DNA from: an uncultured Planctomycetaceae bacterium
GTDB taxonomy: Bacteria; Planctomycetota; Planctomycetia; Pirellulales; UBA1268
Length of the DNA: 37,362 nucleotides
NCBI GenBank assembly: GCA_903917235.1
Contig: CAIWZS010000181.1
Location: 1 to 37,362 of the forward strand
Direction: 5' to 3'
Numbering within the stretch: the stretch's first letter is position 1; each line of letters opens with the position of its first letter. Position numbers and translations under genes: made by a program. A model generated the notes under the pieces. The model saw only the letters and a list, made by a program, of their open reading frames with translations, made no database searches and was not told the origin of the DNA. This document shows positions 6,176 through 26,941 of this stretch, one piece after another.

Positions 6176-6208
6176 GTGATCCCGCGCCGCCCGGCGGCCC
6201 GGTCGTGT

Positions 6209-7165: not shown

Positions 7166-7219
7166 TCGCCTCTCGCTCCCCCGTCGTTCGCTGCCGCGAG
7201 ACGCGGACGCGCCCGCCGG

Positions 7220-8529: not shown

Positions 8530-8537
8530 GGCGCTCC

Positions 8538-9515: not shown

Positions 9516-9516
9516 G

Positions 9517-11388
9517 TCAGGCGGCCCGCCTTTCCCCGCCGGCGCCCCGCGGCCGGCGCGGGGGGGCGATGACCGTGGGTGCGGGGTGTGGCAGCGGACC
9601 GGCCACGAGGGAGGCCAACGCGACCCGCTTCCGTTCGCGCCACACCCGTGCGAGGCCGTCCGGCACGAACTCCGTGGGCGAGAGGTAGGGATGGAAGAAG
9701 TCGTCGCGGGCGAGGCTCGGCGCCCAGCGGGAGATGAAGAGGTCGCGCGCCGTTCCGCCGACGCGACGCGTCCGGCTCTCCCAGTGCACCGCCCGCACCC
9801 GCGGCGCGTAGACGACCTTCCAGCCGGCGCGCCGGAGCCGCAGGCAGAGATCGATGTCGTTGTAGTCGTTCGGAAAACGCTCGTCGAAGCCGCCGAGCTG
9901 CACGAACGCGGAGCGGCGCACGAGCACGCAGGCCGCCGTCACCGCCGAGAACTCCTGCAGCGATGCGACCCGGCCGAGGTAGCCCGGGTCGTCCGCCGGC
10001 CTGCCACGATGAAGGTGCAGGCACATCCGCTTGCGATCGAGGATCGCGCCGCCGTGCTGGAGATCGCCATCCGGATACCGCAGCCGTGCGCCGACCGCGG
10101 CGATCCTCGGGTCGAGCTCCGTGACCGCGACCAGGTCCGCCAGCCAGCCGGGCGAGAAGTCGGAGACGTCGTTGTTGAGGAAGAGGAGCCACGAGCCCTC
10201 GGTCGCCTTCACGGCGGCGTTGTTCATCGCGGCGAAGTTGAACGGGCCGGCGTAGGGGAACACGCGGAGGCGGGAGGCGGCCGACTCCCGCGCGAGGTAG
10301 TCGAGCAGGGCCGGCTCGTCGGACGCGTGGTCGATGACGGTCACGTCGTACGCGTCGTACCCCGCCTGCGCCCGCGCCGACTCGACGCACGTGGCCACGA
10401 GGTCGGCGCCGTTCTTCGTCGGAATGATGATCGACACCCGCGGGTTGTGGACCGCACGCGGGGCGACGTCGTGCACGCCCGGGCAGGCGTCGAGTGGACG
10501 CACGACCGCATCGATGCCACGCCGCGCGAGGGCGGCGGTGGCCATGGCGGCTCGGTCAGCCGCGATGGCGTGCTCGGCTGCGGCCGGACGCACGGGCAGC
10601 GCATTGAGCGGTTCGGCCACGTGGGCGACGTCGGCGAGCGTGAGGCCGCCGAGCGCCTCCAGCGCGATGGCGTAGAGCGCCCCGGGGCCGGTGGCCGGCT
10701 GCGGCTCCGTCGCCAGCCGCTCCACCGCGGCTGCCAGCACCTGCCGCTCGTAGACGACCATGGGCGCCACGACATCCCGCGCGAGCAGGTGGATCGGCGA
10801 GAAGCGCGGCTTCAGCTGCAGCTGCGTCGCGCCGGCGTCCCGCGTCGTGTCGTCGATCTCGACGTGGTCGGCGTACAGCGCCTGCGGACCCGGATGGCGG
10901 GCCCAGGTGGATGCGATCCAGAGCACGGCGTCGTCGCAGGGCACGGCCGCGGCATCCCAGACCGCGATCGGCGCGCCGCGTCCGGCGGCGAGCACCGCCC
11001 GCAGGCCGCGCGCGAGCGAGCCTCCCATGGTGTCGAGGTCGAGAAGGGTCGTGTCGGCAGCCTCGGCGACGCCGTCGAACTGGGCGAGCACCGCACGGGG
11101 TGCCAGCAGCGTGACGTGCGCGCAGGGGAGCGCCTGATCGAAGAGCGCGTCGAGGCAGCGGCGACTGGCCCGCGCCGCCTCCGGCGAGGTTTCGAGGCAC
11201 ACGGCCACCGCCTCGGGACGCGGCAGCGGGGCGGCACGCCGGGCCAGCGCGGCCAGATCGGTGCGGCCGGCGACCGCGACGGTGCGGCCGGTGCGCAGGA
11301 TGCGCAGCGCACTGCCCCGCAGGCGGCGCAGCGCGCGTTCGGCGCGCTTGAGCGGCGAGTCGGGCTTTCCGCGGGATGATCCTGCCAT
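9517..11388 (-). CDS. Large two-part glycosyltransferase, C-terminal GT2 domain
   Basis: 623 residues. Residues about 318-545 form a canonical GT2 catalytic domain: VSIIIPTKNGADLVATCVES, VIDHASDEPA, the NND metal motif near 405, LQHGGAILD, and DYNDIDLCLRLRRAGW near the acceptor site. Residues 60-300 look like a decayed or divergent first domain, with ALYADHVEIDD resembling the DXD strand of O-antigen GT2 proteins of this architecture. ATG 11388 has GGAG 7 nt upstream and lies 10 bp after the aminotransferase stop. It is a cytoplasmic or membrane-face enzyme that probably elongates the glycan. Sugar specificity is unknown. Confidence 0.88.
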   Translation of the reverse strand: MAGSSRGKPDSPLKRAERALRRLRGSALRILRTGRTVAVAGRTDLAALARRAAPLPRPEAVAVCLETSPEAARASRRCLDALFDQALPCAHVTLLAPRAVLAQFDGVAEAADTTLLDLDTMGGSLARGLRAVLAAGRGAPIAVWDAAAVPCDDAVLWIASTWARHPGPQALYADHVEIDDTTRDAGATQLQLKPRFSPIHLLARDVVAPMVVYERQVLAAAVERLATEPQPATGPGALYAIALEALGGLTLADVAHVAEPLNALPVRPAAAEHAIAADRAAMATAALARRGIDAVVRPLDACPGVHDVAPRAVHNPRVSIIIPTKNGADLVATCVESARAQAGYDAYDVTVIDHASDEPALLDYLARESAASRLRVFPYAGPFNFAAMNNAAVKATEGSWLLFLNNDVSDFSPGWLADLVAVTELDPRIAAVGARLRYPDGDLQHGGAILDRKRMCLHLHRGRPADDPGYLGRVASLQEFSAVTAACVLVRRSAFVQLGGFDERFPNDYNDIDLCLRLRRAGWKVVYAPRVRAVHWESRTRRVGGTARDLFISRWAPSLARDDFFHPYLSPTEFVPDGLARVWRERKRVALASLVAGPLPHPAPTVIAPPRRPRGAGGERRAA

Positions 11389-11398
11389 GCGTGCTCCG

Positions 11399-12631
11399 TC
11401 AGGCGGCGAGCCGCGCGCGGCGACCCTCGGAGAGCGCGTGACGGACGGCCCCGGCCCGCGCGCAGGCGGTGTCGAGGATGGTGCCGATCCGCGCGATGTC
11501 GGCCGCATCGACGCCCTCGCCCGTCGGGAAGGCGATGAGCCGTTCGGACAGCCGCTCGGTCACCGGCAGCACGACGGGTCGCGCGGCGTACGGGGCGCTG
11601 CGGTGGCAGCCCGGATGGAAGTAGCGGCGGGCGATCACGTTCTCCGCGTGCAGCACCGCCACGAGTTCGTCACGCGCAAGCGGGCACCGCGCGGGATCGA
11701 CGACCGCGATGAGGTACTGGAAGTTGTTGTCCTCGGCCTCGTCGTATTCGTAGAGCGAAAGGCCGGGAAGGCCGTCGAGCGCCTCCCGGTAGGCGACGCG
11801 ATTGGCCCGGTTGCGCGCCACGATCCGCTCGAGGCATTCGAGGCTCCCGATCCCCACCGCGGCGGAGAACTCGTCGAGCTTCGCGTTGGTGCCGAGCGCC
11901 ACGACGTTGTCATAGCCCGCGAAGCCGAAGTTCCGCATGAGGCGCAGGCGTGCCGCGAGGTCGCGGTCGGGCGTGAGGATCGCGCCCCCTTCGAGGCTCT
12001 GCACGAGCTTCGTGGCGTGGAAGCTCACGACCGAGGCCGTGCCGAGGCCACCCATCGGACGACCCCGGTGGGTGCAGCCGAGCGCGTGGGCGGCATCGAA
12101 GACGAGGGGAATGCCCCGTGCCACCGCGAGGGCCTCGAGCGCCTCGACGGGACACATGCGGCCCCACAGGTGCACGCCCACGATCGCGGCCGTGCGGTCG
12201 GACATCGTGGCCGCGACCGAGTCGGCATCGAGCACGTGCGTGTCCTCGTCCACATCGGCGAACACCGGCTCGCACCCCTCCCAGGCGCAGGCGTGCGCCG
12301 TGGCGATGAACGTGAACGACGGGAGGACCACCTCGCCTGCCACGCCGAGGGCCTTGAGCAGGAGCTGCATGCCGATCGTGGCGTTGCACACGGCCACGGC
12401 CTCGACGCCGCCGCTCATCTCCCCGAGTCGCGCCTCGAACTCCCGCGCGAACGGGCCGTCGTTCGTGAGCCGCCGCGCGTCGAGCATCGCGTCGAGCCGC
12501 GCATGGAGGGTGGCTCGGTCGGGGATGCCGGGCGTGCCCACGTAGCGCGGGGAGGCGAAGGCGGGCGGACCGCCGCACACCGCCAGCTCCGGCGGGGAAC
12601 GCGACGCATCGGACACGGATCGATGGTGCAT
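11399..12631 (-). CDS. DegT/DnrJ/EryC1/StrS-family PLP-dependent sugar aminotransferase
   Basis: 410 residues, the usual length for the family. The PLP lysine is K208 in SFHATKLVQSLEGG. The ring-binding Asp is D179 in LVFDAAHALG. VCNATIGMQLLLKAL forms the phosphate-binding loop, and NFGFAGYDNVVALGTNAKLDEFSAAVG follows. The enzyme transfers an amino group from glutamate to a 4-keto (or 3-keto) 6-deoxy nucleotide sugar. It is the next gene after gmd, whose product is a GDP-4-keto-6-deoxymannose, so a GDP-perosamine synthase role is attractive. However, FHATK-type active sites are, as far as I recall, also common in dTDP-sugar enzymes. The first 30 residues are extra and the Shine-Dalgarno is weak, so a slightly later start is possible. 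Confidence 0.92.
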   Translation of the reverse strand: MHHRSVSDASRSPPELAVCGGPPAFASPRYVGTPGIPDRATLHARLDAMLDARRLTNDGPFAREFEARLGEMSGGVEAVAVCNATIGMQLLLKALGVAGEVVLPSFTFIATAHACAWEGCEPVFADVDEDTHVLDADSVAATMSDRTAAIVGVHLWGRMCPVEALEALAVARGIPLVFDAAHALGCTHRGRPMGGLGTASVVSFHATKLVQSLEGGAILTPDRDLAARLRLMRNFGFAGYDNVVALGTNAKLDEFSAAVGIGSLECLERIVARNRANRVAYREALDGLPGLSLYEYDEAEDNNFQYLIAVVDPARCPLARDELVAVLHAENVIARRYFHPGCHRSAPYAARPVVLPVTERLSERLIAFPTGEGVDAADIARIGTILDTACARAGAVRHALSEGRRARLAA

Positions 12632-12682
12632 GGGGGTGTCCGGCAGTGCGGATGACGACGGGGTGACGGGGCTCCGACCGTC

Positions 12683-13903
<1,221 letters not shown>

Positions 13904-15040
13904 TCAGGCGCAGGCTGCGGTCGGCTGCCGTCCGAGCAGGTCGTCGTAGATCCGGGCGTAGCCCCGCGCGGTCTCGCGCCACGAGAAGGTGGCCACGTGG
14001 GCCCGCGCGCGGTCGCCGAAGTGCGGGTCGCGTGCGGCCGCCTCCATGCCGGCACGGTACGTGGCGGCCAGCGCGGGCCCGTCGTACGAATCGAAGAAGA
14101 AGCCGTGGTCCCCGGCGATCTCCGGCAGGCTCGTCGCCCGCGACATGAAGACCGGCTTGCCGCACTGCATCGCCTCGAGCACGGGGAAGCCGAAGCCCTC
14201 GGCGCGTGACGGAAACAGGAACGCCTCGCAGTGCTCGTAGAGCCACTGTCGATCGCCGTCGGAGACCTCCCCGGGCAGGACCACGCGGTCGGCGAGGCGG
14301 CGGCGGGTCACCTCCTCGCGCAGGAAGCCGCCGTACGGGGTCGTGACCTTTCCGGCGACCACCAGCCGCGGTCCCGGCAGTTCCTCGAGCATGTCGAAGA
14401 GCACGTGGAAGTTCTTGTGGGGCAGGGCGTTGCCGATCGAGAGCAGGAAGGGACCGGCCGGCAGGAAGTCGGGCCGCCGCGGCGACGGGTCGGGGGGGGA
14501 CGAGAGACCGAGTGGCACGACGTGGACCGGCGTGCCGTGGAGGTCGACGTGCTCCGCCAGGTCGCGGGCGACGAACGCCGAGTCGGTGACGATCGCCGTC
14601 GCACGCCGCACGCGCGCCTCGATGTCGGCGAGCTTGCGGCGGATGCGGTCGGGAGCGCGCTCGGCGCCGTCCTCGTGCAGGAAGTTCAGGTCATGGATGG
14701 TGAGCAGCACCGGCACGCGGTCGTCGAGCGGCAGGTACTTCGACATCTGGTTGGTGACGTGCCAGAGCGCCACGTCCGACGGCGGCAGGAAGGGACGCAC
14801 CCATGGCCTGAGGTGGCGACGCAGGTATTCCTTGCGCCAGGGTCGCACGTCGATCCGCGCGAACGACCGGCCGGGGAAGTGGCGTTCCGCACCCTGCGGC
14901 AGGAGGAACACCGGCTCGAAGCGGCCGCGGGCGTCGTCGAGCAGGCCGCGGCCGAGATGGAGCGAGAATCGTCCCAGCCCACAGTTGATGTGGCGGAGCT
15001 TCTCGAGATCGACGACGACGCGCGGCAGCGGCGATGCCAT
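13904..15040 (-). CDS. Family 4 (GT-B) glycosyltransferase
   Basis: 378 residues. The C-terminal nucleotide-sugar domain has PFLLSIGNALPHKNFHVLF, RLVVAGKV and the EX7E motif EGFGFPVLE (about 281-289), followed by MQCGKPVFMSRATSLPEI. These are typical of mannosyl- and rhamnosyl-transferases of family GT4. The N-terminal acceptor domain starts VVVDLEKLRHINCGLGRFSLHLGRGL and includes LLTIHDLNFLHED. The frame stays open far upstream, but ATG 15040 is followed directly by the first beta strand. It is the first gene of the minus-strand glycan cluster, divergent from icd, with 198 bp before gmd. It acts at the cytoplasmic membrane face; the donor may be a GDP-sugar, unproven. Confidence 0.9.
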   Translation of the reverse strand: MASPLPRVVVDLEKLRHINCGLGRFSLHLGRGLLDDARGRFEPVFLLPQGAERHFPGRSFARIDVRPWRKEYLRRHLRPWVRPFLPPSDVALWHVTNQMSKYLPLDDRVPVLLTIHDLNFLHEDGAERAPDRIRRKLADIEARVRRATAIVTDSAFVARDLAEHVDLHGTPVHVVPLGLSSPPDPSPRRPDFLPAGPFLLSIGNALPHKNFHVLFDMLEELPGPRLVVAGKVTTPYGGFLREEVTRRRLADRVVLPGEVSDGDRQWLYEHCEAFLFPSRAEGFGFPVLEAMQCGKPVFMSRATSLPEIAGDHGFFFDSYDGPALAATYRAGMEAAARDPHFGDRARAHVATFSWRETARGYARIYDDLLGRQPTAACA

Positions 15041-15247
15041 GGATGGCGCTTCCCTGCGAACGACGGGCCCATCCGCATCTTGGCGACCGACCGGCCGGCG
15101 CCCAAGAGCGGTTCCGGGCGGTGCGCGGGTGCTTCTGCCGCCGTGGCTCCACGGGCCCGTGGGAAGCCCGGGAACGGATTGGTACAACTCCGCCGCGACG
15201 ACGGTCATCGGTGAGCCCGTCGCGTCGACATCCGTGGGGGTTTGGGC

Positions 15248-16486
15248 ATGGCAGGCACGAGCGCCGGCAAGACGGGCAGGATCACCGTGCGGGGGCCGAT
15301 CGTCGACCTCGATGGCGACGAGATGACGCGGATCATCTGGCAGTTCATCAAGGACCGCCTGATCCTGCCCTACCTCGACGTCGAGCTGCGTTCGTTCGAC
15401 CTCTCGATCCAGAACCGCGACGCCACGGAGGACCGCGTGACCGTGGACGCCGCCCACGCGATCCAGGCATGCGGCGTGGGGGTGAAGTGCGCGACGATCA
15501 CGCCCGACGAGGCCCGCGTGAAGGAGTTCGGCCTCCGGAAGATGTGGAAGAGCCCCAACGGCACGATCCGCAACATCCTCGGGGGCGTGATCTTCCGCGA
15601 GCCGATCATCATCTCGAACATCCCGCGGCTCGTGCCCGGCTGGACGAAGCCGATCGTGGTGGGCCGTCACGCCTTCGGCGACCAGTACCGGGCGACCGAC
15701 ACGCGCATCCCGGGGCCGGGGGCGCTCACGCTCACGTTCACGCCGGCCGACGGCTCGGCCCCCATGGAGCTCCAGGTCTACGACTTTCCGTCGAGTGGCG
15801 TGGCGCTGGCCATGTACAACCTCGACGACTCGATTCGTGACTTCGCCCGCGCGAGCTTCCGCTACGGCCTCGTCAGGCGGTATCCGGTCTACCTGTCGAC
15901 GAAGAACACGATCCTCAAGGCCTACGACGGCCGCTTCAAGGACATCTTCCAGGAGGTCTTCGACGCGGAATTCCGGGCGGAGTTCACGGCCCACGGCCTG
16001 ACGTATGAGCACCGCCTCATCGACGACATGGTGGCCTCGGCGCTCAAGTGGGAGGGGGGCTACGTCTGGGCCTGCAAGAACTACGACGGCGACGTGCAGA
16101 GCGACATCGTGGCCCAGGGCTTCGGGTCGCTGGGGCTCATGACGAGCGTGCTCATGACGCCCGACGGGCGCACCGTCGAGGCGGAGGCCGCGCACGGCAC
16201 CGTGACGCGGCACTACCGCCAGCACCAGCAGGGCAAGCCGACCTCCACCAATCCCATTGCCTCCATCTTCGCCTGGACCCGCGGCCTCGCGCATCGCGGC
16301 ACGCTCGACGAGACGCCCGAGGTGACCCGGTTTGCCGAGACGCTCGAACGCGTGTGCATCGAGACGGTGGAGGCGGGGAAGATGACGAAGGACCTGGCGA
16401 TCCTCGTCGGCCCCGGACAGGAGCATCTGACGACGGAGGCGTTTCTCGCCGCCGTCGATGCCGGGCTCCGCGCCGCGATCGGTTGA
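15248..16486 (+). CDS. icd: NADP-dependent isocitrate dehydrogenase, eukaryote-like homodimeric type
   Basis: 412 residues, close to the usual length of the cytosolic/mitochondrial-type enzyme. Diagnostic stretches are [13 protein letters not shown] near the N-terminus, the isocitrate-binding [29 protein letters not shown], and the NADP-binding [10 protein letters not shown] followed by [17 protein letters not shown]. It oxidatively decarboxylates isocitrate to 2-oxoglutarate with NADP in the TCA cycle. The ATG at 15248 has a G-rich run just upstream; an in-frame TTG two codons earlier is less likely. It is a housekeeping gene inserted between glycan and secretion genes, and divergent from the GT4 gene with about 207 bp between them. 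Confidence 0.97.
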
Positions 16487-16670
16487 GCCGCGAGGCGGCG
16501 GGTCCGCGCGGGCGGCGGTGCATGCGCGTGATGGTGGCAGGCTGGCGAGTGCCCACAGGCGGGGCAAGGTCTGCGTTTTCGATCTTGCGACGGCGCTGCC
16601 GCGGCCGATATCCCCCCACGGATGGATCCGTTCGTTCGCCCCTCGCGCCGGTCCCGGTGCGTCACCCGCC

Positions 16671-16675
16671 AGGAG
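16671..16675 (+). promoter_or_regulatory. Shine-Dalgarno AGGAG for the GTG start at 16683
   Basis: AGGAG sits 7 nt before GTG 16683. The frame is open for 75 codons upstream with no homology, so this site, together with the motif that follows, decides the start. Confidence 0.75.
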
Positions 16676-16682
16676 ATTTGCC

Positions 16683-17723
16683 GTGGCCAGCCTGCCCTTC
16701 GGTCGCACCCCGGTGCCCCAGAGTCGTCGTCGCCCGCTGTCGCTCGAGTCGCTCGAGTCACGCGCGCTGCTCGCCGGTGTTCCCTTCTCGTCCATTCCCG
16801 ACCTCGTCGCGGCCAGTGACGCCGGGACGTCGGCGACCGACAACAGGACGAATGTCTCGGCCCCGACGTTCACGGGCACGGCCCGCAACGCGCAGTCGGT
16901 GAAGATCTTCGTGGGTCGCACCGAGGTCGGCACGGCGCCGGTCGTCGACGGACGCTGGTCGTTCACGCATCCCGGGTTCGCCGATGGCCGCTACACCGTG
17001 CTAGCCCAGCCGGTCGGTGAGGGCGGCACGACCGGCCGGCTCACGGCCGCGCTGCCGATCGAGATTCGCACCGCGGCTCCGGCGACGCCCTCGCTCGGGA
17101 TCGTGCAGGCGGGTGTCAGGCCCTCGCAGGCGGGTTCTGCCGCGACCAACCTGGCGCGGCCCGTCTTCAACGGTCTCGGCCCGACGGGCGGCACCGTCGA
17201 GGTCTTCGTGGACGGCTCGTCGGTCGGCCGCGGTGTCGTCGGGAACGGTCGCCAGTTCGTCGTCCGTCCGGCCGCGTCACTCGCCAGCGGCCAGCGGGCG
17301 GTGACCGCCGTGGCGTCGGACGTCTTCGGGAACCGAAGCGCCGCGGCCACGCTCGCGCTGGCGGTCGACGCCGAAGCGCCGACGGTCGTGTCGATCGTCC
17401 GCACATCGTTCGACACGCTCACGGCGACCTTCAGTGAGGCCGTGAAGGGCGTCACGCCGGGCAATTTCCGGTTCTCCGGCCGCACGTCCGACGGCTTCGC
17501 CATCTCCTCGAGGCCTCTGACCGACGGGCAGTTGCGGATGTTCGTGGGTACGATCACCGGTCAGTTGTCGGCCGATGGTCGCACCTACACGCTGCGGGCC
17601 CCGAATCTCGACCTCGCGGCCGGCACATTCTCGCTGACGTTGCCGAAGGGCGCCGTCACCGACCTCGCCGGCAATCGCCTCGCCAACGCGGGCACGCTGA
17701 CGGTCGAGGTCGAGGGCGCGTGA
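16683..17723 (+). CDS. Secreted/surface protein with planctomycete LEPR-like N-terminal motif and Ig-like domains
   Basis: 346 residues starting at GTG. Residues 15-32 contain RRRPLSLESLESRALLAG, which matches the LExLExRxLLAG pattern (LEPR-XLL type) found at the N-terminus of many planctomycete extracellular proteins and thought to act in export or sorting. Two Ig-like beta-sandwich units follow (PTFTGTARNAQSVKIFVG..., PVFNGLGPTGGTVEVFVDG...). The C-terminal third, from DAEAPTVVSIVRTSFDTLTATFSEAV to AVTDLAGNRLAN, resembles SwmB/Big-type domains. There are no catalytic motifs; a role in adhesion or surface structure is likely. It stands alone between icd and the pseudopilin and ends 45 bp before a perfect hairpin. 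Confidence 0.82.
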   Translation: MASLPFGRTPVPQSRRRPLSLESLESRALLAGVPFSSIPDLVAASDAGTSATDNRTNVSAPTFTGTARNAQSVKIFVGRTEVGTAPVVDGRWSFTHPGFADGRYTVLAQPVGEGGTTGRLTAALPIEIRTAAPATPSLGIVQAGVRPSQAGSAATNLARPVFNGLGPTGGTVEVFVDGSSVGRGVVGNGRQFVVRPAASLASGQRAVTAVASDVFGNRSAAATLALAVDAEAPTVVSIVRTSFDTLTATFSEAVKGVTPGNFRFSGRTSDGFAISSRPLTDGQLRMFVGTITGQLSADGRTYTLRAPNLDLAAGTFSLTLPKGAVTDLAGNRLANAGTLTVEVEGA

Positions 17724-18214: not shown

Positions 18215-19111
18215 ATGGAAGGCTTGGTCCACGGGCAGCGAGTTGCGAGGGGATTCACGCTGATCGAACTGATCGTCGTGATCGCGATCATCGGAACGCT
18301 CGTGGGAATGCTTCTCCCCGCGGTCCAACGGGCCCGCGAGTCGGCCCGCCAGGCGTCGTGTCGCAACAACATGCGGAACATCGGGGTCGCCGTGCTCAAT
18401 CACGAGACCGCCAAACGCGTGTTTCCGATCGGCTGTGACCACGCCACCGGGCTCGATCATGCGTGGTCGTCGTTCATCCTCCCGTACCTCGAGCAGGGAA
18501 ACACCGCCGCCCGCATCGACTACGCGAAGCCGTGGAACGACCAGCCGGCCGGTGGCGTTCCCGGCAATCTCGCCGCCGCCGACACGACGGTGCCGGTGTA
18601 CATCTGCCCGTCAGGGATCGTGAGTTACGCGGGCAAGCAGGACTACTTCGGGATGGCCGGGATCGGTCCGGGAGCCGAGGGCGTGCCATGGACGGGTTAT
18701 GACCCGGGCCCGGCGGCGGTCAAAGTGCCTGAAGAAGAATGGACGACGTGCGGGATGCTCTATCAAACGGACTCGCGGACACCGCGGGGAGTACGGGCGG
18801 CGGCCGTGACCGACGGCCTGAGCCGGACTTTGATGGTGTCGGAGTCGAGCGACCAAGGGGTGCCGGTGAGTGAACTCACTGATCCCAGACAGGCCGCCGG
18901 GTTCGGTCGGTGGGCCACGTCGTCGAGCTACCTCCTCAACAAGCGGGTGGTCAATGACAACCGGGGTGAGCCCTTCTTCAGCAACCATTCCGGCATCATT
19001 TTCGCACTTTTTGCCGACGGCCACGTGGGCATCATCAAGGACGGGGTGGACCCGGCTGCCTTGGTGGCGGTTTCCACGCGAAGTGGCGGCGAAATTCAGT
19101 CAGATCTCTGA
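18215..19111 (+). CDS. DUF1559 pseudopilin-like protein with type IV prepilin N-terminus
   Basis: 298 residues. The class III signal reads ARG|FTLIELIVVIAIIGTLVGMLLPAVQ: cleavage after G13, the conserved Glu at position +5, and a single hydrophobic helix. RARESARQASCRNNMRNIGVAVLNHE follows, which is the start of DUF1559 (SBP_bac_10). The family ends with a (F)ADGHV-type motif, here FALFADGHVGIIKDG. Such proteins are highly expanded in planctomycetes and are thought to be processed by a prepilin peptidase and held at the cell envelope; their role is unknown. ATG 18215 gives a short, basic leader as expected. No pilus assembly genes lie nearby, so it depends on machinery encoded elsewhere. Confidence 0.93.
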   Translation: MEGLVHGQRVARGFTLIELIVVIAIIGTLVGMLLPAVQRARESARQASCRNNMRNIGVAVLNHETAKRVFPIGCDHATGLDHAWSSFILPYLEQGNTAARIDYAKPWNDQPAGGVPGNLAAADTTVPVYICPSGIVSYAGKQDYFGMAGIGPGAEGVPWTGYDPGPAAVKVPEEEWTTCGMLYQTDSRTPRGVRAAAVTDGLSRTLMVSESSDQGVPVSELTDPRQAAGFGRWATSSSYLLNKRVVNDNRGEPFFSNHSGIIFALFADGHVGIIKDGVDPAALVAVSTRSGGEIQSDL

Positions 19112-19135
19112 TTTGTGGGATTCCGATTTTTTTGC

Positions 19136-19164
19136 TTGCACGGGTGGGTCGACGCCGGTAGATT
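19136..19164 (+). promoter_or_regulatory. Candidate sigma70 promoter of the small exported protein
   Basis: TTGCAC and TAGATT (4/6 each) with an ideal 17-bp spacer, in unusually AT-rich sequence just after the pseudopilin gene. It would give a leader of about 150 nt containing a direct repeat TCTCGATACGT at 19250-19260 and 19262-19272. Confidence 0.5.
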
Positions 19165-19311
19165 CCCCAAGTCGCCGAGATTCCGGTCTCGCGATCGTCG
19201 CTTGCGAAAAGAGACGGCAGCGAGACGGTTCAACCGATCACAAGTTCGTTCTCGATACGTTTCTCGATACGTACAGATTCGTGAGTTCTCAAACGAGTCC
19301 TTTCCTTTCCT

Positions 19312-19317
19312 GAGGAG
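19312..19317 (+). promoter_or_regulatory. Shine-Dalgarno GAGGAG for the GTG start at 19325
   Basis: GAGGAG with 7-nt spacing to GTG 19325. It decides the start against a longer in-frame reading that begins at 19115 and lacks a signal peptide at its N-terminus. Confidence 0.8.
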
Positions 19318-19324
19318 CCTTGCT

Positions 19325-19666
19325 GTGGCAATTCGTCGTGTGCTTCTGTCAGTTGCGGCAATGGCCTTGATGGTCGCCGTCGCGTCCCCGGCCATGGCCG
19401 GTGGTGGTGGTGGTGGCTCGAAGTCCAAGGTCAACATCCGCGTCAAGAACTTCACCACTGACCCGGTTGCCGTCGCCGTGGCCAACAAGAACCCGACCCA
19501 ATTCCGCGGTTTGAACCCGGATCAGGTCACGCAGTTCAAGGTCAACAAGGGCGCCTTCGTGGTGAACGATCAGGTCGAGTCGGCCTCGTTCAACACCGGC
19601 AGCCGGAAGACCGTGTACATCGCGATCTCCGACTTCGGTATCGAAGACACGACGACCCGGTTCTGA
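19325..19666 (+). CDS. Small exported protein with poly-Gly mature N-terminus, unknown function
   Basis: 113 residues from a GTG start. A clear Sec signal peptide, MAIRRVLLSVAAMALMVAVA, ends at SPAMA|G after residue 25. The mature protein of about 88 residues opens with six glycines and SKSK, then a beta-rich part: VNIRVKNFTTDPVAVAVANKN, QFKVNKGAFVV, KTVYIAISDFGIED. There are no cysteines and no known catalytic motif. It has its own promoter-like element, a strong Shine-Dalgarno and a strong terminator, and it is richer in AT and Lys/Asn than its neighbours. These features suggest an abundant, independently expressed periplasmic or surface protein. I do not recognise the family. Confidence 0.85.
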   Translation: MAIRRVLLSVAAMALMVAVASPAMAGGGGGGSKSKVNIRVKNFTTDPVAVAVANKNPTQFRGLNPDQVTQFKVNKGAFVVNDQVESASFNTGSRKTVYIAISDFGIEDTTTRF

Positions 19667-19700
19667 TTCGGGACGTCCCCGATCGGGACACGAAGCGAAC

Positions 19701-19754
19701 AAGCCGGTCGGAGCATCAGGGGTGACCCGTGCTCCGGCCGGCTTCTCGCTTTTT
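19701..19754 (+). terminator. Rho-independent terminator after the small exported protein
   Basis: AAGCCGGTCGGAGCA (19701-19715) pairs with TGCTCCGGCCGGCTT (19730-19744) over 15 bp with one U-G wobble. The loop is 14 nt and a T-run follows at 19750-19754. It lies 34 bp after the stop codon and separates this gene from lnt. Confidence 0.85.
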
Positions 19755-19803
19755 GGGTGCCTTTCGGTTGGTCGTTCGTCGGTCGCCCGGTGTCGTTTGT
19801 GTC

Positions 19804-19831
19804 CCCCCGATACGGCAGGTAGAACCGGGGG
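19804..19831 (+). promoter_or_regulatory. Hairpin overlapping the lnt ribosome-binding site
   Basis: CCCCCG (19804-19809) can pair with CGGGGG (19826-19831), which directly abuts ATG 19832 and is the only purine-rich stretch available as a Shine-Dalgarno. It could hide the site; the stem is only 6 bp. Confidence 0.35.
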
Positions 19832-21448
19832 ATGCAGCCCAATCCTGCCCGTTCGACATCGCGACCGATCGGCGCGTCGGTCCCGGTCGCGTTGCTCGCC
19901 TCGGTGTCGCTCGCGGTCATCACCGCCGCGCCCTGGTTGCGGCAGGAACTGGTCGTGTGTGCGATCGGCAGCGTCGTGGCCGGACTGCTGCTCGCCCGGC
20001 ATGTCCGCGGCTGGGTGGGCGAGTCGGCGGCCCTGCTGACGGCGATCCTCTCGCTCTCGATCGCCTTCCACTGGGCGCCCAAGGTGCTCGCCCATGCGAT
20101 GGACACGAGTGATCGGATCGGGCTCGCCTTCACGGTGCCGATCGTGCTCTGGGACGCGCTGCGGCTCGTGGCCCCCTTTTGGTTCGTGGCCCGGTTCGTG
20201 CGGGATCCCCGCGACGCCTGGCTGCCTGCGGCGCTCGTGGCGGTGGTCACGGAGGCCGTCCTGCCGAGTGTGTTTCCCTGGAAGCTCGGCTACACGCTCA
20301 TCGCCTGGCCGGTGACCATCCAGGGCGTCGATGCGTGCGGCCCGGAGTGGTCGACGTTCGTGCTCTTCGCGATCGCGGGCGCGGTGATCGGCGTGCTCGC
20401 CGCGATCCTGATTCGCGTGGGTCGCGGACAGCTGGTCGGGATGGACGCGGATTCCGCAGGCCGCGCGTGGACGCCGACGGGCCTGGCCGCGCTGGCTGTC
20501 GTGGCCGGCAGTCTCGTCCATGGCATGTGGGCGATGGCGTCGTGGAACGCGGCGATCGCGGCGGCTCCGAAGCTGCGCGTGGCGCTCGTGCAGGCCGACC
20601 CGTCCGAGGAGGATGCGATCGAGGACCTGCAGCGACTCACACGCGAGGTGTGCGGTGCCGGTGATGTCGATCTCGTGTGCTGGCCGGAGTGCAGTGGCGG
20701 CTCGTACGAAGACTGCCTCCAGTCGTTCACCGACCAGGATCTGCGCGACCGCTTCTCGCGCGAGCCTCGTCAGGGCGTGCATCCGCTCGAGTCGCCATCC
20801 TGCCCCCTACTCTTCGGCGGCCAGATCTACCGGGGCCTCAAGGAAAAGCCGAAGGAGCTCTTCCAGTCGGCGATCCTCATGGACCGGTCCGAGTCGCTCG
20901 CCGGCACCTACCACAAGCGCCACCTCATGCCCTTCGGCGAATACGTCCCGTGGGCGGAGCAGTTTCCCGAATTGCGGCTCTATTTCCCGATGGCCGAGGA
21001 ATTCAGCGTCGGCCGTGAGGCGACCGTGCTGGCCACCGACGGTCCGGCGCGGCTGGGCGTGCTCCTCTGCTACGAGGACATGGTGTCGCCGGCGGCTTCC
21101 TCGCTCGTGCGCAACTCCGCCAACGTGCTCGTGTCGCTCATCAACGGCTCGTTTTTCACCGAGCCGCTGACGCTCGTGCAGCACCGACTCCTCGCCCAGC
21201 TCCGGGCGGTCGAGAACCGACGCCCCCTCATGCGCTGCGCCGCGACGGGGGAGACGTGCGTCATCTCACCGCTCGGCACGATCGTCGCTCGTCTGCCGCT
21301 GCACGCCACCGACGTGCTCACCGCGGAAGTGCCCCTCGTGGAGACCGTCACGCTGGCGACAAGATTCTGGCCGGCGTTTCCCGCAGCCTGCGGGCTCGCG
21401 CTCGTCACCGTCGGCCTGCGTCGTCGACTGGCCGCCCGTGCGGCGTGA
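19832..21448 (+). CDS. lnt: Apolipoprotein N-acyltransferase
   Basis: 538 residues. The first 240 residues hold several membrane helices (for example VPVALLASVSLAVITAAPW, STFVLFAIAGAVIGVLAAILI, LAALAVVAGSLVHGMWAM). From K247 a nitrilase-type domain follows with the Glu-Lys-Cys triad in place: E286 in VCWPEC, K362 in YHKRHLMPFGEYVPW and C413 in LLCYEDM. The enzyme adds the third acyl chain to the N-terminal Cys of lipoproteins at the periplasmic side of the inner membrane, which supports a diderm envelope. It is preceded by the terminator at 19701-19754, so it starts its own unit. A repeat-filled gap separates it from the glycosyltransferases downstream. Confidence 0.95.
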   Translation: MQPNPARSTSRPIGASVPVALLASVSLAVITAAPWLRQELVVCAIGSVVAGLLLARHVRGWVGESAALLTAILSLSIAFHWAPKVLAHAMDTSDRIGLAFTVPIVLWDALRLVAPFWFVARFVRDPRDAWLPAALVAVVTEAVLPSVFPWKLGYTLIAWPVTIQGVDACGPEWSTFVLFAIAGAVIGVLAAILIRVGRGQLVGMDADSAGRAWTPTGLAALAVVAGSLVHGMWAMASWNAAIAAAPKLRVALVQADPSEEDAIEDLQRLTREVCGAGDVDLVCWPECSGGSYEDCLQSFTDQDLRDRFSREPRQGVHPLESPSCPLLFGGQIYRGLKEKPKELFQSAILMDRSESLAGTYHKRHLMPFGEYVPWAEQFPELRLYFPMAEEFSVGREATVLATDGPARLGVLLCYEDMVSPAASSLVRNSANVLVSLINGSFFTEPLTLVQHRLLAQLRAVENRRPLMRCAATGETCVISPLGTIVARLPLHATDVLTAEVPLVETVTLATRFWPAFPAACGLALVTVGLRRRLAARAA

Positions 21449-21482: not shown

Positions 21483-21803
21483 TGGCACCGGCTCGGCCGA
21501 CCACCCCTTCGCTTCGTCTTCTCTGACTGCTTCGTCCAGACGTCGCGTAACCTCCATGCAGTGTGGCACCGGCTCGGGGCGGCGGCAAAAGTCTCCTCGC
21601 TCGGGCCGCGGCGGCCGCTCGCTCGGGAAGCGTTCGCCGACCACCCCTTCGCCTCGTCTTTTCTGACTGCTTCGTCCAGACGTCGCGTAACCTCCATGTA
21701 GTGTGGGGCCGGCTCAGGGCGGCGGCAAAAGTCTCCTCGCTCGGGCCGCGGCGGCCGGTCGCTCGGGAAGCGTTCGCCGACCACCCCTTCGCCTTGTCCT
21801 TCG
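21483..21803 (+). repeat. Imperfect tandem repeat of a 140-bp unit (about 2.3 copies)
   Basis: Unit 2 spans 21564-21703 (140 bp). Unit 1 (21483-21563) is the same sequence with a 59-bp internal deletion. Unit 3 (from 21704) follows the unit to about 21803, then diverges near the next start codon. The anchor CCACCCCTTC recurs at 21501, 21641 and 21781, exactly 140 bp apart. Units differ by scattered single bases. The block fills the gap between lnt and the GT2 gene and carries nothing else I can recognise. Confidence 0.92.
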
Positions 21804-21813
21804 ACGTGTCCAG

Positions 21814-22809
21814 ATGCACTCTCAGGAACCGGTCGTCTGCCTCGTGATCGTCACGTGCAACTCCACGGACGTGATCGAGCGTTGTCTTGCGTCCGTGGCG
21901 GCGCAGACGCGCCTGCCCGACCGGCTGATCGTCATCGACAACGCCAGCACCGACGGATCGTCGGACGAGACGGAGCGGGTGCTCGAGCATCTGCCGGTGC
22001 TTGCCGTGCGTGCGACGGTGCGCCGTGAGGCACACAACCTCGGGTTCGCCGCCGCGAACAATCGCGCCATCGCATCCACCGATGCCTCGTGGGTGGCGCT
22101 CCTCAATCCGGACGCGTTTCCCGAGCCGTCATGGCTCGAGTCGCTGCTGGCCGCGACGCGGGCACATTCCGACGCAGCCGCCTTCGGGTCGCTCCAGATG
22201 CTCGACGGACGCCCCGACGTCGTCGACGGCTGCGGCGACGTCTACCACGTGAGCGGTCTATCGTGGCGGGCCGGTCATGGGCGTCCGCTGCATCCCGACC
22301 ACCTCGAGGAGCGGGAGGTGTTTTCCGTCTGCGCGGCTGCGGCGCTGTATCGGCGGGACGCCGTGGTCGCGGTGGGCATGTTCGACGAAGACTTCTTCTG
22401 TTACCTCGAGGATGTCGATCTGGGGTTTCGGCTGCGGCTGGCGGGTCATGCCGCGCGGCACGTGCCCTCGGCCGTCGTCCGCCATGTCGGCAGCAGTTCG
22501 AGTGGCGGCCGCCACAGCCCGTTCGCCATTTACCACGGACATCGCAACATGGTCTGGTGCTTCGTGAAAAACATGCCACAGCCGCTTTTCGCCGGCCTGT
22601 TGCTCCCCCATCTGGCCCAGACTATCGTGACTTTCCTGGTGATGTGGCGACGCGGTCGGGCCCACGCGTTCCTGGTGGCCAAGCGGGATGCCCTCGCCGG
22701 GCTTCCAGCGATTCTGCGGAAGCGGACGCACGCGAGACGAGCCGGGCAGTGGCGCGTGGGGTGGCGGCGGATATGGCGGGTGCTCGACGCGGGATGGTGG
22801 CGGGCGTGA
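21814..22809 (+). CDS. Family 2 glycosyltransferase (WbbL/rhamnosyltransferase-like)
   Basis: 331 residues. The GT2 core includes VVCLVIVTCNSTDVIERCLASV (7-28), VIDNASTDGSSDET, NLGFAAANNRAI and the metal-binding LLNPDA. EDFFCYLEDVDLGFRLRLAGH is the ED acceptor motif typical of WbbL-type rhamnosyltransferases. After it come GHRNMVWCFVKNMP and a hydrophobic segment (LLLPHLAQTIVTFLVMW), which suggests membrane attachment. I start it at ATG 21814, where homology begins; the frame is open further upstream through the tandem repeat. It overlaps the next GT2 gene, so the two are probably coupled and work on the same chain. Confidence 0.9.
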   Translation: MHSQEPVVCLVIVTCNSTDVIERCLASVAAQTRLPDRLIVIDNASTDGSSDETERVLEHLPVLAVRATVRREAHNLGFAAANNRAIASTDASWVALLNPDAFPEPSWLESLLAATRAHSDAAAFGSLQMLDGRPDVVDGCGDVYHVSGLSWRAGHGRPLHPDHLEEREVFSVCAAAALYRRDAVVAVGMFDEDFFCYLEDVDLGFRLRLAGHAARHVPSAVVRHVGSSSSGGRHSPFAIYHGHRNMVWCFVKNMPQPLFAGLLLPHLAQTIVTFLVMWRRGRAHAFLVAKRDALAGLPAILRKRTHARRAGQWRVGWRRIWRVLDAGWWRA

Positions 22810-23831
22810 GGCAGCCGGTGCACGAGACTCGTCAATCGTCCGATGCCGAGCTCGCGGCCGCGTCGGTGGTCATCGTGAACTTCAACGCGGGCGACGTGCT
22901 CCGCGAGTGCCTCGAGGCACTGCTGCCGCAGGCACGGCAGGTCGTGGTCGTCGACAACGCCTCCGAGCCGACCGGGTTCGAGGCGGCTGTGGCGCCGTTC
23001 CTGGATCATCCGCGCGTGGTCGTCATCCGGTCTCCGAACAACGTCGGCTTCTCCGCCGGGTGCAACCTCGGCATCGCGGCCGCCACCGAGCCGACGATCC
23101 TCCTGCTCAACCCGGACAGCATCGTGCATCCCGGAGCCGTATCGCGGCTCTGCGAGGTGCTGCACAGTCGGCCGACGGTTGGCATGGTCGGCGGGTTTCT
23201 CGTATCGCCCGATGGGACGGAGCAGGGGGGCGGACGTCGCGCCGTGCCGACACCGTGGCGGTCGGCGGTTCGCGGCTTCGGCCTCTCGCGTCTGGCCCGG
23301 CGGTGGCCCAGGCTCTTCGATGACTTCTATCTCCACCTGCAGCCCCTGCCCCCGGGACCGGTGGTGGTCGAGGCCATCTCCGGTGCGTGCATGGCCGTTC
23401 GCCGGCAGGCGCTCGACGATGTCGGGCTCCTCGACGAGGGCTACTTCCTCCACTGCGAGGACCTCGACCTGTGCATGCGGTTTCGTCAGCGCGGGTGGGA
23501 GATCCTCTTCGTTCCTGACGCCCGCGTGCTGCACCACAAGGGAGTCTGCAGCCACGATCGCCGACTGTTCGTCGAGTGGCACAAGCACCGGGGCATGATG
23601 CGGTTCTATCGAACGCATTTCCGGCACCAGTACCCGGCGGGGCTCATGACGCTCGTCCGGCTCGGTGTCTGGGCACGCTTCGCCGGCATCGCGGCCACGA
23701 TCACGGCCCGCCGGATTCCCGCATGGTGTCGTGGCGGCATCGGACGCCTGGCCTCAGTCGTCCGACCCCGACGCACCCAGGCACCGACCGTCATGACGCG
23801 TGGCGTCACCTCGAGTTCCGTCGCCTCGTAG
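22794..23831 (+). CDS. Family 2 glycosyltransferase (WbbL-like), second of pair
   Basis: 345 residues from ATG 22794. A GTG at 22806, whose last bases overlap the previous stop as GTGA, is an equally plausible start and would shorten it by 4 residues. Motifs: ASVVIVNFNAGDVLRECLEAL, VVVDNASEP, NVGFSAGCNLGIA, LLLNPDS, and YFLHCEDLDLCMRFRQRGWEI. FYRTHFRHQYPAG and a weakly hydrophobic tail follow. It is closely related in plan to the preceding gene, so the pair may add successive rhamnose-like sugars. It ends 15 bp before the epimerase-like gene. Confidence 0.9.
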   Translation: MVAGVRQPVHETRQSSDAELAAASVVIVNFNAGDVLRECLEALLPQARQVVVVDNASEPTGFEAAVAPFLDHPRVVVIRSPNNVGFSAGCNLGIAAATEPTILLLNPDSIVHPGAVSRLCEVLHSRPTVGMVGGFLVSPDGTEQGGGRRAVPTPWRSAVRGFGLSRLARRWPRLFDDFYLHLQPLPPGPVVVEAISGACMAVRRQALDDVGLLDEGYFLHCEDLDLCMRFRQRGWEILFVPDARVLHHKGVCSHDRRLFVEWHKHRGMMRFYRTHFRHQYPAGLMTLVRLGVWARFAGIAATITARRIPAWCRGGIGRLASVVRPRRTQAPTVMTRGVTSSSVAS

Positions 23832-23846
23832 TCCGAGGGAGCAGGC

Positions 23847-24830
23847 GTGCCCAGCGCGGCGATCACGTCGATGACGACGGGGCCTGGAGCGCCGGGTCAT
23901 GCGGATGGGAGCACACTCGAGCCGGTGTCGGTCACGATGATGCCCCCGGCCCCTGACGCGACGGCGCTTCACTCGACCATGCCCGAGACGGGTGCAGGGG
24001 CCCGTGGCTGTGTCGGCGTGCTCGGCATGGGCAGCTTCGTCTCCCGGCCGCTCCTGTCACGCCTCGCGCTGGCCGGGTATGCGTCATGGCCCATTGCCTC
24101 GCGCGCGGCTGCCGCGGACCGCGTGTCTGCGGTCGCCACCCCGGGGGGCATCACCGCGGCGGTCGCCCTGTGTCCGCTCTGGGGGCTCGTCGATCGTCTG
24201 CCGGCTCTCACGGCGCTGGGCATCCGCCGGATCGTGGCGGTGTCCTCGATGAGTCGCCTCACGAAGGCGGCTTCACCCGATCCAGACGAGCGGGCCGTCG
24301 CGGAGCGGCTTGCCGCCGCCGAGGACGCGGTCGCGCGCTGGGCGGAGCGGCACGCGACGCGCGTGACGATTCTGCGGCCGACGCTCGTGTACGACGGCCT
24401 GCACGACCGCAACGTGACCCGGATCGCGGGCTTCGTCCGCCGCTGGAGGTTTTTTCCTCTCGTCGGTGCGGGATGCGGCCTCCGGCAGCCGCTGCACGCC
24501 GACGACCTCGCGGCCGCCTGCGTCGCGGCCCTCGACGCCCCGTCGCCCCGGCCGTGCTACGACGTTGCCGGCGGTGAGACACTCACCTACCGCGAGATGG
24601 TCTCACGCATCTTCGTGGCGGTCGGCAGGCGTCCACAATTCGTGGAGGTGCCGCGGGTGCTCGTGCGTGCCGCGCTCCCCATGCTCGGGCTCCTGCCGGG
24701 CTTCCGCGGCGTTTCGGTCGCGGCCTTCGACCGCATGAACGAGCCACTCGTCGCCGACAACGCGGCGGCCGTCGCCGATCTGGGGTTCGCTCCGCGGCCG
24801 TTCAATCCCCGGTCGGGAAGCCCGCCATGA
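23847..24830 (+). CDS. NAD(P)-binding epimerase/NmrA-like short-chain protein
   Basis: 327 residues. The Rossmann strand GCVGVLGMGSFVSRPLLSRL begins near residue 54. The later LRPTLVYDGLHDRNV and PLHADDLAAACVAALD segments are typical of atypical SDRs such as complex I NDUFA9-like proteins and UDP-sugar epimerases. VAVSSMSR occupies the catalytic Ser strand, but no YxxxK is evident, so activity may be absent or altered. GTG 23847 has GAGGGAGCAGG upstream. The first 50 residues are low in complexity, so a start near ATG 23979 is possible. The stop overlaps the next ATG (ATGA), which ties it to the O-antigen ligase gene. Confidence 0.75.
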   Translation: MPSAAITSMTTGPGAPGHADGSTLEPVSVTMMPPAPDATALHSTMPETGAGARGCVGVLGMGSFVSRPLLSRLALAGYASWPIASRAAAADRVSAVATPGGITAAVALCPLWGLVDRLPALTALGIRRIVAVSSMSRLTKAASPDPDERAVAERLAAAEDAVARWAERHATRVTILRPTLVYDGLHDRNVTRIAGFVRRWRFFPLVGAGCGLRQPLHADDLAAACVAALDAPSPRPCYDVAGGETLTYREMVSRIFVAVGRRPQFVEVPRVLVRAALPMLGLLPGFRGVSVAAFDRMNEPLVADNAAAVADLGFAPRPFNPRSGSPP

Positions 24831-26941
24831 GTGAGAGCGTCCAGCCCATGAATCAGAGCGTCCAGCCGGACGAGGAAGGTCGGTCCTCGGGGGTGGAGGG
24901 TGGCGGCTGCCACGTGCCGGTTCCTGCGACCGCTTCGGCATGCCGGCGCACGTGCTGGGTCGTGGGCTGGCTCGCGCTCGTGCTCATTGGCATCAACCTC
25001 GTCCACGATGCGTCGATGCACGACAAGACGCTCGTCCCCCGCCTGCACGCGCTGCTCATCGTCCTCGGAGCCTCCGGACTCGCCCTCGTGATGCCGCGCG
25101 TGCTGCGCCGATGCGATCCGTCGATCGTCCGCGAGCCGGTCGTCCTGGGCGCGCTCGCCCTCGTCGCGTGCACCGCGCTGTCGCTCCTTGCCGCCGTCAA
25201 CGTGAGTGCCGGCTGGCTCGATCTCGTGCGCACCAGCGCGTTCGCCGGTGTGCTCGTGGTGTCGTGCCTGCTCCTGCCGCTCGTGCCGCGCTGGCCCGAC
25301 CACCTGCTGCGCCTGCTCGTCGTCTCGGCCGCGGTCACCGCCGGCCTCGGGTGGGCGGAGTTCATCATGCGCTATGGGATCAACGTGCCGGGGAGACGGT
25401 GGATCGAGGACGTGTCGGGCCGGATGGGCAACATCAACCTTCTGTCGAGCTACCTGGTCCTCGTCCTGCCCGGCTGCCTTGGCGCGGCGTGTCTGCTCCG
25501 TGGTGCGTGGCGGGGGGCCGGGGCGCTGGCGGGTGTCGCGTCCCTGGTGCTCGTCATCGTGCTGCAGTCGCGGTCCGCCTGGGTCGCGCTCGCCGCGTCC
25601 GCACTCGTCGCGCTGGCGGTGGCGTGGCGCGTGCGCGAGCGACTCGGGATCGGACGGGTCCTGCGGAACGTCATGGTCACGGGGGCTGTGGGAATCACCT
25701 GCGGGATCGCGGCCTGTGGTTCACTCGCGAGTCCCGATCATCCGATCATGGCGCGGCTGCGCAGCATCGGCGTCGCGAATCCGGACGGCCGACCGAGCGA
25801 CGGAGGCCGGACGGTGATCTGGTGGCTCACCACGCACCTGATCGCCGATCACCCGCTCGTCGGAGTCGGTGCCGGCAACTTCCCGATCCGCATCCAGGAG
25901 TATTACGCGACGCCCGGTGCCGATCTGGCGAGGCTGCACACCGACGACTGGTCCCGGCCGCACAACGACTTCCTGCAGGTGTGGGCGGAGAAGGGAGTGC
26001 TGGGACTGGCGGCCTTCATCGGCATCTTCGCGGCCGCCCTCGCGTCGATCGTCACGGTCCTGCGAGTCGCGGTGTCTCCGCGCGATGCGGGACTCGCCGT
26101 GCTCTTGCTCATGTCGTTCGTGACCAACCTCGTCGCCTCGTGCTTCGATTTTCCGCTCGAGCGGATCAGCCATCAGGCGACGCTCGCCGTACTCCTCGCG
26201 GCGGCCACGGTCCTGCGGCGGGAGGTCGCGGCGCGGGCTGTCGGTGATCCCCTCCACGCGGCTCGACGTGCGCCGACGTGGGGCGACGGCCCCGAACCGA
26301 CCGCGGTCGGTAGCGACGGATGCAGCGACGTGCCATCCGCCGGCGCATCCGGTCTCGTCTGGGGCGTCGTGGCCGCGGGGATCGTCGCCACGGCCTGTGG
26401 CCTTGCCTGGACGACCGTGGCGATCTCCCAGGAGCGATCCGCCGTGGGGGCCCGCGCGGCGCTCGAGGCGGGCAGGTGGGACGACGCGGTGCGTCTGGCC
26501 CGCGGTGCCACGACGCCGTGGCGCACGCTCGACCCGTTCGGTACCCCGGTCGCGTTTCTCGAGGGTGCGGCGCACATGCGGTCGGGCGCCGCGGACGAGG
26601 CCATCGCGTGCCTCGAGCGGGCCCGCCGTCACCACCCGAATCGTCTCGTCGTGCTCAACAACCTCGGCATCCTCTACGCGACGACGGGGCGCACCGACGA
26701 CGCGATCGAGTGCCTCTCCGTCGCGGCGTCGCGGTATCCGCACCGGCTCGAAAGCGTCACGAACCTGGCCGGTTGCTACCTCGACGCAGGACGGCCGACC
26801 GACGCCGTGAGCCTCATCGAAGGCGTGCCGGAGACGAGCCGCACGCCCGTCATGCGCGAGCATCTCGCACGGGCGCGGTCGCTCCTGGGCTTGCCCTCCG
26901 GCGCGCCATCGGACACGTCTCAGCCCGCGGCGGAACGCTGA
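24827..26941 (+). CDS. O-antigen ligase/polymerase-like membrane protein with C-terminal TPR-like repeats
   Basis: 704 residues. About ten membrane helices occupy residues 40-470. The Wzy_C/WaaL signature follows in the expected order: DHPLVGVGAGNFPIRI, then the periplasmic-loop motif RPHNDFLQVWAEKGVLGLAAFIG, with its His at about 379. A further helix (GLVWGVVAAGIVATACGLAW) leads to residues 540-690, which hold TPR-like helices (EAGRWDDAVRLARG, LNNLGILYATTGRTDDAIECL, TNLAGCYLDAGRPTDAVSLI). Such proteins link or polymerise undecaprenyl-linked glycans at the outer face of the inner membrane. It overlaps the epimerase-like gene by 4 bp, with two GT2 genes just upstream. Substrate unknown. Confidence 0.9.
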   Translation: MSESVQPMNQSVQPDEEGRSSGVEGGGCHVPVPATASACRRTCWVVGWLALVLIGINLVHDASMHDKTLVPRLHALLIVLGASGLALVMPRVLRRCDPSIVREPVVLGALALVACTALSLLAAVNVSAGWLDLVRTSAFAGVLVVSCLLLPLVPRWPDHLLRLLVVSAAVTAGLGWAEFIMRYGINVPGRRWIEDVSGRMGNINLLSSYLVLVLPGCLGAACLLRGAWRGAGALAGVASLVLVIVLQSRSAWVALAASALVALAVAWRVRERLGIGRVLRNVMVTGAVGITCGIAACGSLASPDHPIMARLRSIGVANPDGRPSDGGRTVIWWLTTHLIADHPLVGVGAGNFPIRIQEYYATPGADLARLHTDDWSRPHNDFLQVWAEKGVLGLAAFIGIFAAALASIVTVLRVAVSPRDAGLAVLLLMSFVTNLVASCFDFPLERISHQATLAVLLAAATVLRREVAARAVGDPLHAARRAPTWGDGPEPTAVGSDGCSDVPSAGASGLVWGVVAAGIVATACGLAWTTVAISQERSAVGARAALEAGRWDDAVRLARGATTPWRTLDPFGTPVAFLEGAAHMRSGAADEAIACLERARRHHPNRLVVLNNLGILYATTGRTDDAIECLSVAASRYPHRLESVTNLAGCYLDAGRPTDAVSLIEGVPETSRTPVMREHLARARSLLGLPSGAPSDTSQPAAER

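Follow-up and report, generated by a model that had tools for sequence, protein, structure and literature searches.

In the Aat system, AatD, a homologue of the apolipoprotein N-acyltransferase Lnt carrying the residues E217, K278, E286 and C325, has been described to acylate CexE on an invariant N-terminal glycine after the action of signal peptidase I (PMC7943197). According to the accessible text of the same paper, mature CexE starts with GGGNS and has no lipobox, the glycine at +1 being required and the +2 one being helpful, and the first five residues of CexE-type proteins are a mix of Gly and Ser. AatD is reported, in the accessible text of PMC7478709, in Enterobacterales only; that paper states that Lnt can partly replace AatD, which is disputed in PMC7943197. 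As far as found in the literature searched, this virulence-linked system is the one proven case of bacterial N-terminal glycine acylation (PMC7943197). AatD-type glycine acylation was already known; what is new here is a planctomycete module, DUF1559-SMALL-LNT2, in which acylation of the small protein SMALL is predicted from sequence.

The module lies in a window of 37,362 nucleotides, which is the whole contig CAIWZS010000181.1 (G000:C181) of a 4.67-Mb, 553-contig assembly from an uncultured Planctomycetaceae bacterium. The coordinates of its features are given in Table 1.

Table 1. Features of the DUF1559-SMALL-LNT2 locus, in positions of the window.
Feature	Position	Strand	Basis or remark
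Ig-like (Big_13) extracellular protein, upstream of DUF1559	16458..17723	+	start uncertain; common to six related loci
DUF1559 (SBP_bac_10) pilin-like protein, prepilin N-terminus	18215..19111	+	ATG at 18215 chosen by inspection
12-bp tandem duplication (TTCTCGATACGT twice), leader of SMALL	19249..19272	+	unique in assembly, not conserved
Ribosome-binding site GAGGAG	19312..19317	+	read directly
SMALL, small exported protein gene	19325..19666	+	ORF read; GTG start, 113 aa, mature part without Cys
Signal peptide of SMALL, 25 aa, ending A-M-A	19325..19399	+	signal peptidase I type, without lipobox
Six Gly codons at the mature N-terminus of SMALL	19400..19417	+	+1 Gly in 29/29, +2 Gly in 20/29 (site by pattern)
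Predicted all-beta sandwich domain of SMALL, residues 33-113, 8 strands	19421..19663	+	AlphaFold2 on alignment
Terminator hairpin and T run between SMALL and LNT2	19701..19755	+	folding
LNT2, second divergent apolipoprotein N-acyltransferase homologue, 538 aa	19832..21448	+	E286, K362, E370, C413

As in the Aat system (AatD with CexE or dispersin (Aap)), SMALL appears as a small exported protein with a signal peptidase I site, no lipobox and an N-terminal Gly in a Gly/Ser start, and LNT2 as a dedicated Lnt homologue with the E/K/E/C residues, whose gene either adjoins that of the substrate or lies apart from it. The two systems differ in lineage and neighbours, Enterobacterales with AatPABC on one side, Planctomycetota with a pilin-like DUF1559 protein beside the genes on the other. 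No TolC- or LolC/E-like family was found among the 25 ORFs of the window scanned with Pfam, so that no Aat-like exporter is seen nearby. LNT2 also scores above the cut-off of the Lnt equivalog model; for AatD, by contrast, an identity to Lnt of about 10% is given (PMC8689077). The likeness is to AatD and CexE as they are described in print, and acylation in the planctomycete we infer from the sequence. As the two systems agree closely wherever a sequence can test them, SMALL is read as a glycine lipoprotein and LNT2 as its acyltransferase. Our main reading is that SMALL is the substrate of LNT2, a dedicated protein N-acyltransferase, and that it is displayed with the help of the DUF1559 pseudopilin; from the whole analysis we put its probability at roughly 0.55.

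SMALL and its glycine start

The original prediction had described a tiny exported protein with a poly-Gly start and of no known family, and this description was borne out. The reading frame, signal peptide, AMA|G site and Gly-run mature start are present; cleavage at AMA|GGGGGGSKSK, a site placed by pattern and by eye, would leave a mature part of 88 residues, whose first glycine (residue 26) is the predicted acylation site. The protein encoded in the window reached the cut-off of no Pfam model and was matched by no NCBIfam model. TrbC, DUF6488 and Cupredoxin_1 were rejected as Pfam names for SMALL, all of them scoring below cut-off, and 17 family members compared with Pfam gave three stray matches only, each in one member. 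The best match to a PDB sequence had an E value of 0.24. SMALL is a real gene, with relatives 21-43% identical over the alignment in its own and in other genera.

A protein search with SMALL recovered 21 of 146 genomes at E 0.01, its own included, and 18 of 146 once four loci with matches in other or broken frames (L014, L015, L018 and L019) had been dropped. Among the 72 genomes of the bacterial family, a profile search found SMALL in 21 at E 0.001. With the loci added by position and by a wider profile, SMALL amounts to 29 loci in 25 genomes, the lowest identity being 21%; the most divergent member, L126, had an E value of 6e-4 before inclusion and owes its membership to position. L069 was omitted from alignment A5. 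Second copies, of the GSPSTQTVRIKN type, were observed away from the triad at L068 (449-1015) and L074 (6024-6443), divergent from a large exported-looking gene, in two genomes which also have the triad. Across 392 genomes of the phylum (best 10 candidates each), the SMALL profile gave three matches, namely SMALL itself and two weak ones, both of which were rejected, one lying in a 1890-aa frame and the other containing a stop. A viral origin was rejected, viral contigs having yielded no relative of SMALL.

All 29 SMALL proteins have, by pattern, a signal peptidase I site without lipobox and without N-terminal Cys, and a single one (L126) has a Cys in its mature part, away from the N-terminus. 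Glycine stands at +1 in each of them, at a cleavage site picked by a pattern that itself required Gly; the same site was among the candidates for every protein in an unfiltered list of AxA sites, in which other AxA sites often lie beside it (e.g. AFA|QA in L077). The +2 residue was Gly in 20 of the 29 proteins, and Gly, Ala or Ser in 28. Gly and Ser together occupy on average 3.72 of the first five mature positions (range 2-5), versus 17% over the rest. In a crude control, +1 Gly was present in 4 of 27 other signal-like N-termini. A Gly after AxA may be merely a good context for cleavage.

Structure prediction gave a confident eight-stranded beta sandwich for residues 33-113 of SMALL, with pLDDT mostly of 88-93 per block, and a similar fold was predicted for one homologue. 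With VIA-align, the N-terminal domain of AlgF (PDB 6czt) came first for the SMALL of the window (Z 9.4, 79 aligned, 3.7 A), tied with the extracellular domain of PepT2 (Z 8.8, 78 aligned, 2.4 A); for the homologue model, PepT1 had a Z of 7.9 and AlgF was fifth, tied, at 7.3. Such Z values between predicted and known folds may reflect merely a common arrangement. Foldseek alone returned one match below E 0.001, to PUD-1, with an rmsd of 11.9. The structural neighbours of AlgF listed in the accessible text of PMC10641220 are mostly binding domains and overlap with the fold neighbours of SMALL, PepT2, pneumolysin and transthyretin being common to both sets. AlgF has two domains versus one in SMALL and no sequence match to it; homology to AlgF was rejected, 17 members of the SMALL family having no AlgF match at E 0.01. 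A search with PF11182 in 149 genomes was uninformative, as it gave no match anywhere, 14 controls included. The fold of SMALL does not reveal its function.

LNT2 and the DUF1559 pseudopilin beside SMALL

LNT2, directly downstream of SMALL, has in common with Lnt (TIGR00546; PDB 5vrg and 5n6h) the C-N hydrolase family, the catalytic residues and a score above the equivalog cut-off of TIGR00546 (162.9 versus 132.9 bits). The E/K/E/C residues of Lnt were intact in 23 of 23 LNT2 proteins examined, with E in WPE, K and E in K-R-x-LMPFGE, and the motif CYED, but CSED in one. In a tree of 36 sequences, 23 LNT2 were split from 13 Lnt1 by one branch (100/100); the fragments L073, L080, L122 and L127 were excluded from the tree and from the residue check. 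Orthologues of LNT2, full or partial and with 51-66% identity, were found in 24 further genomes of the family, making 25 of 72 with its own. Just past the end of LNT2 (21496-21775), two tandem 140-bp direct repeats, 95% identical, surround the start of the next glycosyltransferase gene.

The score above the Lnt equivalog cut-off and the usual catalytic residues would also suit a spare or condition-specific Lnt acting on Cys lipoproteins, in a neighbourhood of no functional meaning. We regard this explanation as improbable. Another, more distant Lnt is present elsewhere in the same genome (L125) and in 17 of 18 LNT2 genomes checked, LNT2 tracks SMALL in presence and place, and SMALL itself has no lipobox. 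Compared with Lnt, LNT2 stands as a deeply separated second paralogue adjoining a protein without lipobox.

The gene directly upstream of SMALL encodes a DUF1559 protein, which shares PF07596, N_methyl and the prepilin motif with planctomycete DUF1559 (SBP_bac_10) proteins and exceeds the cut-offs of PF07596 (143.6 bits), N_methyl (29.7) and TIGR02532 (27.2); its H-X9-DG match is below cut-off. The genome holds 41 DUF1559 matches, which would put chance adjacency very roughly in the order of one per hundred genes. The DUF1559 proteins of the module stand apart: in a tree, 24 of them were split by one branch (100/100) from the 19 compared among the 40 other matches of the genome. L121 (residues 124-295 only) was left out of this tree, as were L068, L074, L082 and L085, for which no DUF1559 was found or readable.

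Pfam also detected Planc_extracel matches in the window alongside DUF1559, both in keeping with a planctomycete. Polysaccharide genes are seen on both sides of the module, with a sulfotransferase, hexapeptide, GNAT, GT2, DegT aminotransferase, GDP-mannose dehydratase and GT4 on the left (2938-15061), and two GT2, an epimerase and an O-antigen-ligase-like protein on the right (21703-26941). On another contig of the assembly (G000:C23), a 349-aa frame at L129 (4829-5878, minus strand) runs, by eye, from ribosomal protein S3 straight into L16; it is either an apparent rpsC-rplP fusion across both ribosomal subunits or an assembly error.

DUF1559, SMALL and LNT2 were found on one strand at 21 of the 29 SMALL loci, at two of them with LNT2 cut by a contig end. 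Two members (L068 and L074) are found outside the triad, and at four other loci DUF1559 and SMALL have no LNT2 beside them. By thresholds, the 72 genomes of the family were divided into 20 with both SMALL and LNT2, one with SMALL only, five with LNT2 only and 46 with neither; the Fisher p of 3e-12 overstates the association, since the genomes, being related, are not independent observations, and since some of them are incomplete. After reading of the positions, these numbers became 25, 0, 1 and 46, the one genome with LNT2 only having a contig that ends inside LNT2. All 25 genomes with SMALL have LNT2, though the copy read in G056 spans just 53 residues, where a contig ends. Within a genus, some genomes have the genes and others do not (2 of 6 have them in g12 and 3 of 12 in g7), a pattern which argues for gain and loss as a unit.

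The most constant neighbour of SMALL is DUF1559, encoded directly upstream and on the same strand at 25 of 27 readable loci (at two further loci the contig ends, and two lack DUF1559). G008 and G017 each carry two DUF1559-SMALL pairs, one of each of two types that SMALL and DUF1559 have in common; the pairs are on other contigs than the single LNT2, whose retention there speaks for the main reading. The constancy of DUF1559 as a neighbour, these pairs and the resemblance of the predicted SMALL domain to binding sandwiches such as that of AlgF favour another explanation, in which SMALL would carry no lipid and would act in the periplasm or at the surface as a partner of the DUF1559 pseudopilin, as an AlgF-like adaptor or a tip protein, and LNT2 would serve ordinary lipoproteins or the pseudopilus complex and be merely co-inherited. 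It leaves unexplained the +1 Gly in 29 of 29 proteins with the Gly/Ser start, and the presence of LNT2 in 25 of 25 SMALL genomes when 46 of 72 family genomes are without both, and we hold it to be rather unlikely. Distances were correlated between SMALL and DUF1559 (r 0.904; partial correlation 0.589) and between SMALL and LNT2 (r 0.865). The mirror-tree approach was rejected as proof of a DUF1559 partner, the two coefficients being nearly equal, so that co-divergence singles out no partner.

Among 392 genomes of the phylum (best 3 candidates each), LNT2 gave two matches at E 1e-30, its own and one in G448, from another family of the class, where an LNT2-like gene is 30% identical over most of its length. 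The DUF1559 protein of G448 is sister to the clade of the module (100/97). At this locus (L152, 3528-7633), DUF1559 is followed by two exported proteins and then by the convergent LNT2 relative on the opposite strand. Neither exported protein matched the SMALL profile, and no Gly start was apparent in them by inspection. The LNT2 of G448 may act on another substrate. The association of LNT2 with DUF1559 thus seems to predate the family, and it is only among family members that the glycine feature is demonstrated.

Expression signals and base composition around SMALL

SMALL had been presented originally as a self-contained unit for a very highly expressed or recently acquired protein, with a promoter-like element, a repeated leader sequence, a GAGGAG site and a strong terminator, in DNA more AT-rich than its surroundings. 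The GAGGAG site is in place, 7 nt 5' of the start of SMALL, and the leader does contain TTCTCGATACGT twice in tandem. This sequence occurs nowhere else in the 4.67-Mb assembly (its reversed control gave 0) and was not found in the 213 bases upstream of any of the 26 SMALL homologues examined out of 28, L082 and L085 being left out of the upstream and promoter checks on account of contig ends; the 12-bp duplication is thus private. An operator role for the repeat was rejected, on this single site in the assembly and on its absence from the 26 homologous leaders. The promoter-like element was not recovered: no sigma-70-like site was found in 18600-20300, and the best upstream match (7/12) was below the shuffle mean of 8.0. 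Three of the 26 homologous leaders (L062, L065 and L081) beat their shuffles at a fraction of 0.03 or less, so no shared promoter element is demonstrated.

The strong terminator was confirmed by folding, the segment 19695-19756 reaching -42.4 kcal/mol (z -7.25; none of 200 shuffles as low) before TTTTT. A consensus terminator scan, probably because it is confined to loops of 3-8, did not list this hairpin. Of 28 homologous loci, 13 have a hairpin 3' of SMALL that outdid each of 15 shuffles. Most transcripts may stop at the strong hairpin and so not reach LNT2. Base composition also agreed with the first description, since, of the 600-base blocks of the window, 19201-19800 has the lowest GC (0.590), the second-lowest being at 0.627 and the rest at 0.667 or more, for a window GC of about 0.70. 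In absolute terms, SMALL homologues have a GC of 0.59-0.68 and their leaders of 0.51-0.67. The ribosomal-protein genes of the genome were not clearly set apart by codon bias from the genes of the window, so codons are uninformative on the expression of SMALL.

The terminator, the Shine-Dalgarno sequence and the low GC would suit a secreted protein whose gene stands alone and is either very strongly expressed or newly acquired. To call SMALL self-contained misses its setting, a triad conserved in several genera, although a strong hairpin does follow the gene, and recent acquisition is not supported, the same gene order being found in genomes of five genera. With no sigma-70-like promoter above shuffles and with uninformative codon usage, we consider the isolated-gene explanation very improbable.

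A putative route for a planctomycete glycine lipoprotein

In the mechanism that we propose, SMALL would be exported through Sec; cleavage at AMA|G by signal peptidase I would then expose an unmodified glycine at the head of a Gly/Ser tract. LNT2 would acylate this glycine, and the acyl tail would anchor the compact beta-sandwich domain in a membrane. The DUF1559 pseudopilin of the module would then move SMALL or display it at the surface, probably with a type II secretion or type IV pilus-like machine of the cell; this display is the weakest step and, with its machine, a conjecture. For lipoproteins such as pullulanase, type II secretion has been put forward as the way to the surface (cited in the accessible text of PMC12578637), which makes a display aided by a pseudopilus plausible, still as a conjecture.

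The literature searched, with most subscription papers outside it, did not link planctomycetes to glycine acylation or to a second Lnt. We tentatively suggest, as a possibility, that planctomycetes have a pathway of their own for glycine lipoproteins: a paralogue of Lnt, dedicated to this task, would acylate an exported protein with a beta-sandwich domain, and a clade-specific DUF1559 pseudopilin would carry the product to the surface. If true, glycine lipoproteins would have a second secretion route, and DUF1559, a very large and unexplained family, would have a first member with a concrete role. Planctopirus limnophila has 68 DUF1559 paralogues, two of which are essential, according to the accessible text of PMC10632474, and the module would provide a testable partner for DUF1559 proteins. 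Our data suggest that surface proteins carrying a fatty acid on glycine are not confined to the pathogens of the gut. The same anatomy in environmental planctomycetes would make glycine lipoproteins a wider class, missed by lipobox-based predictors.
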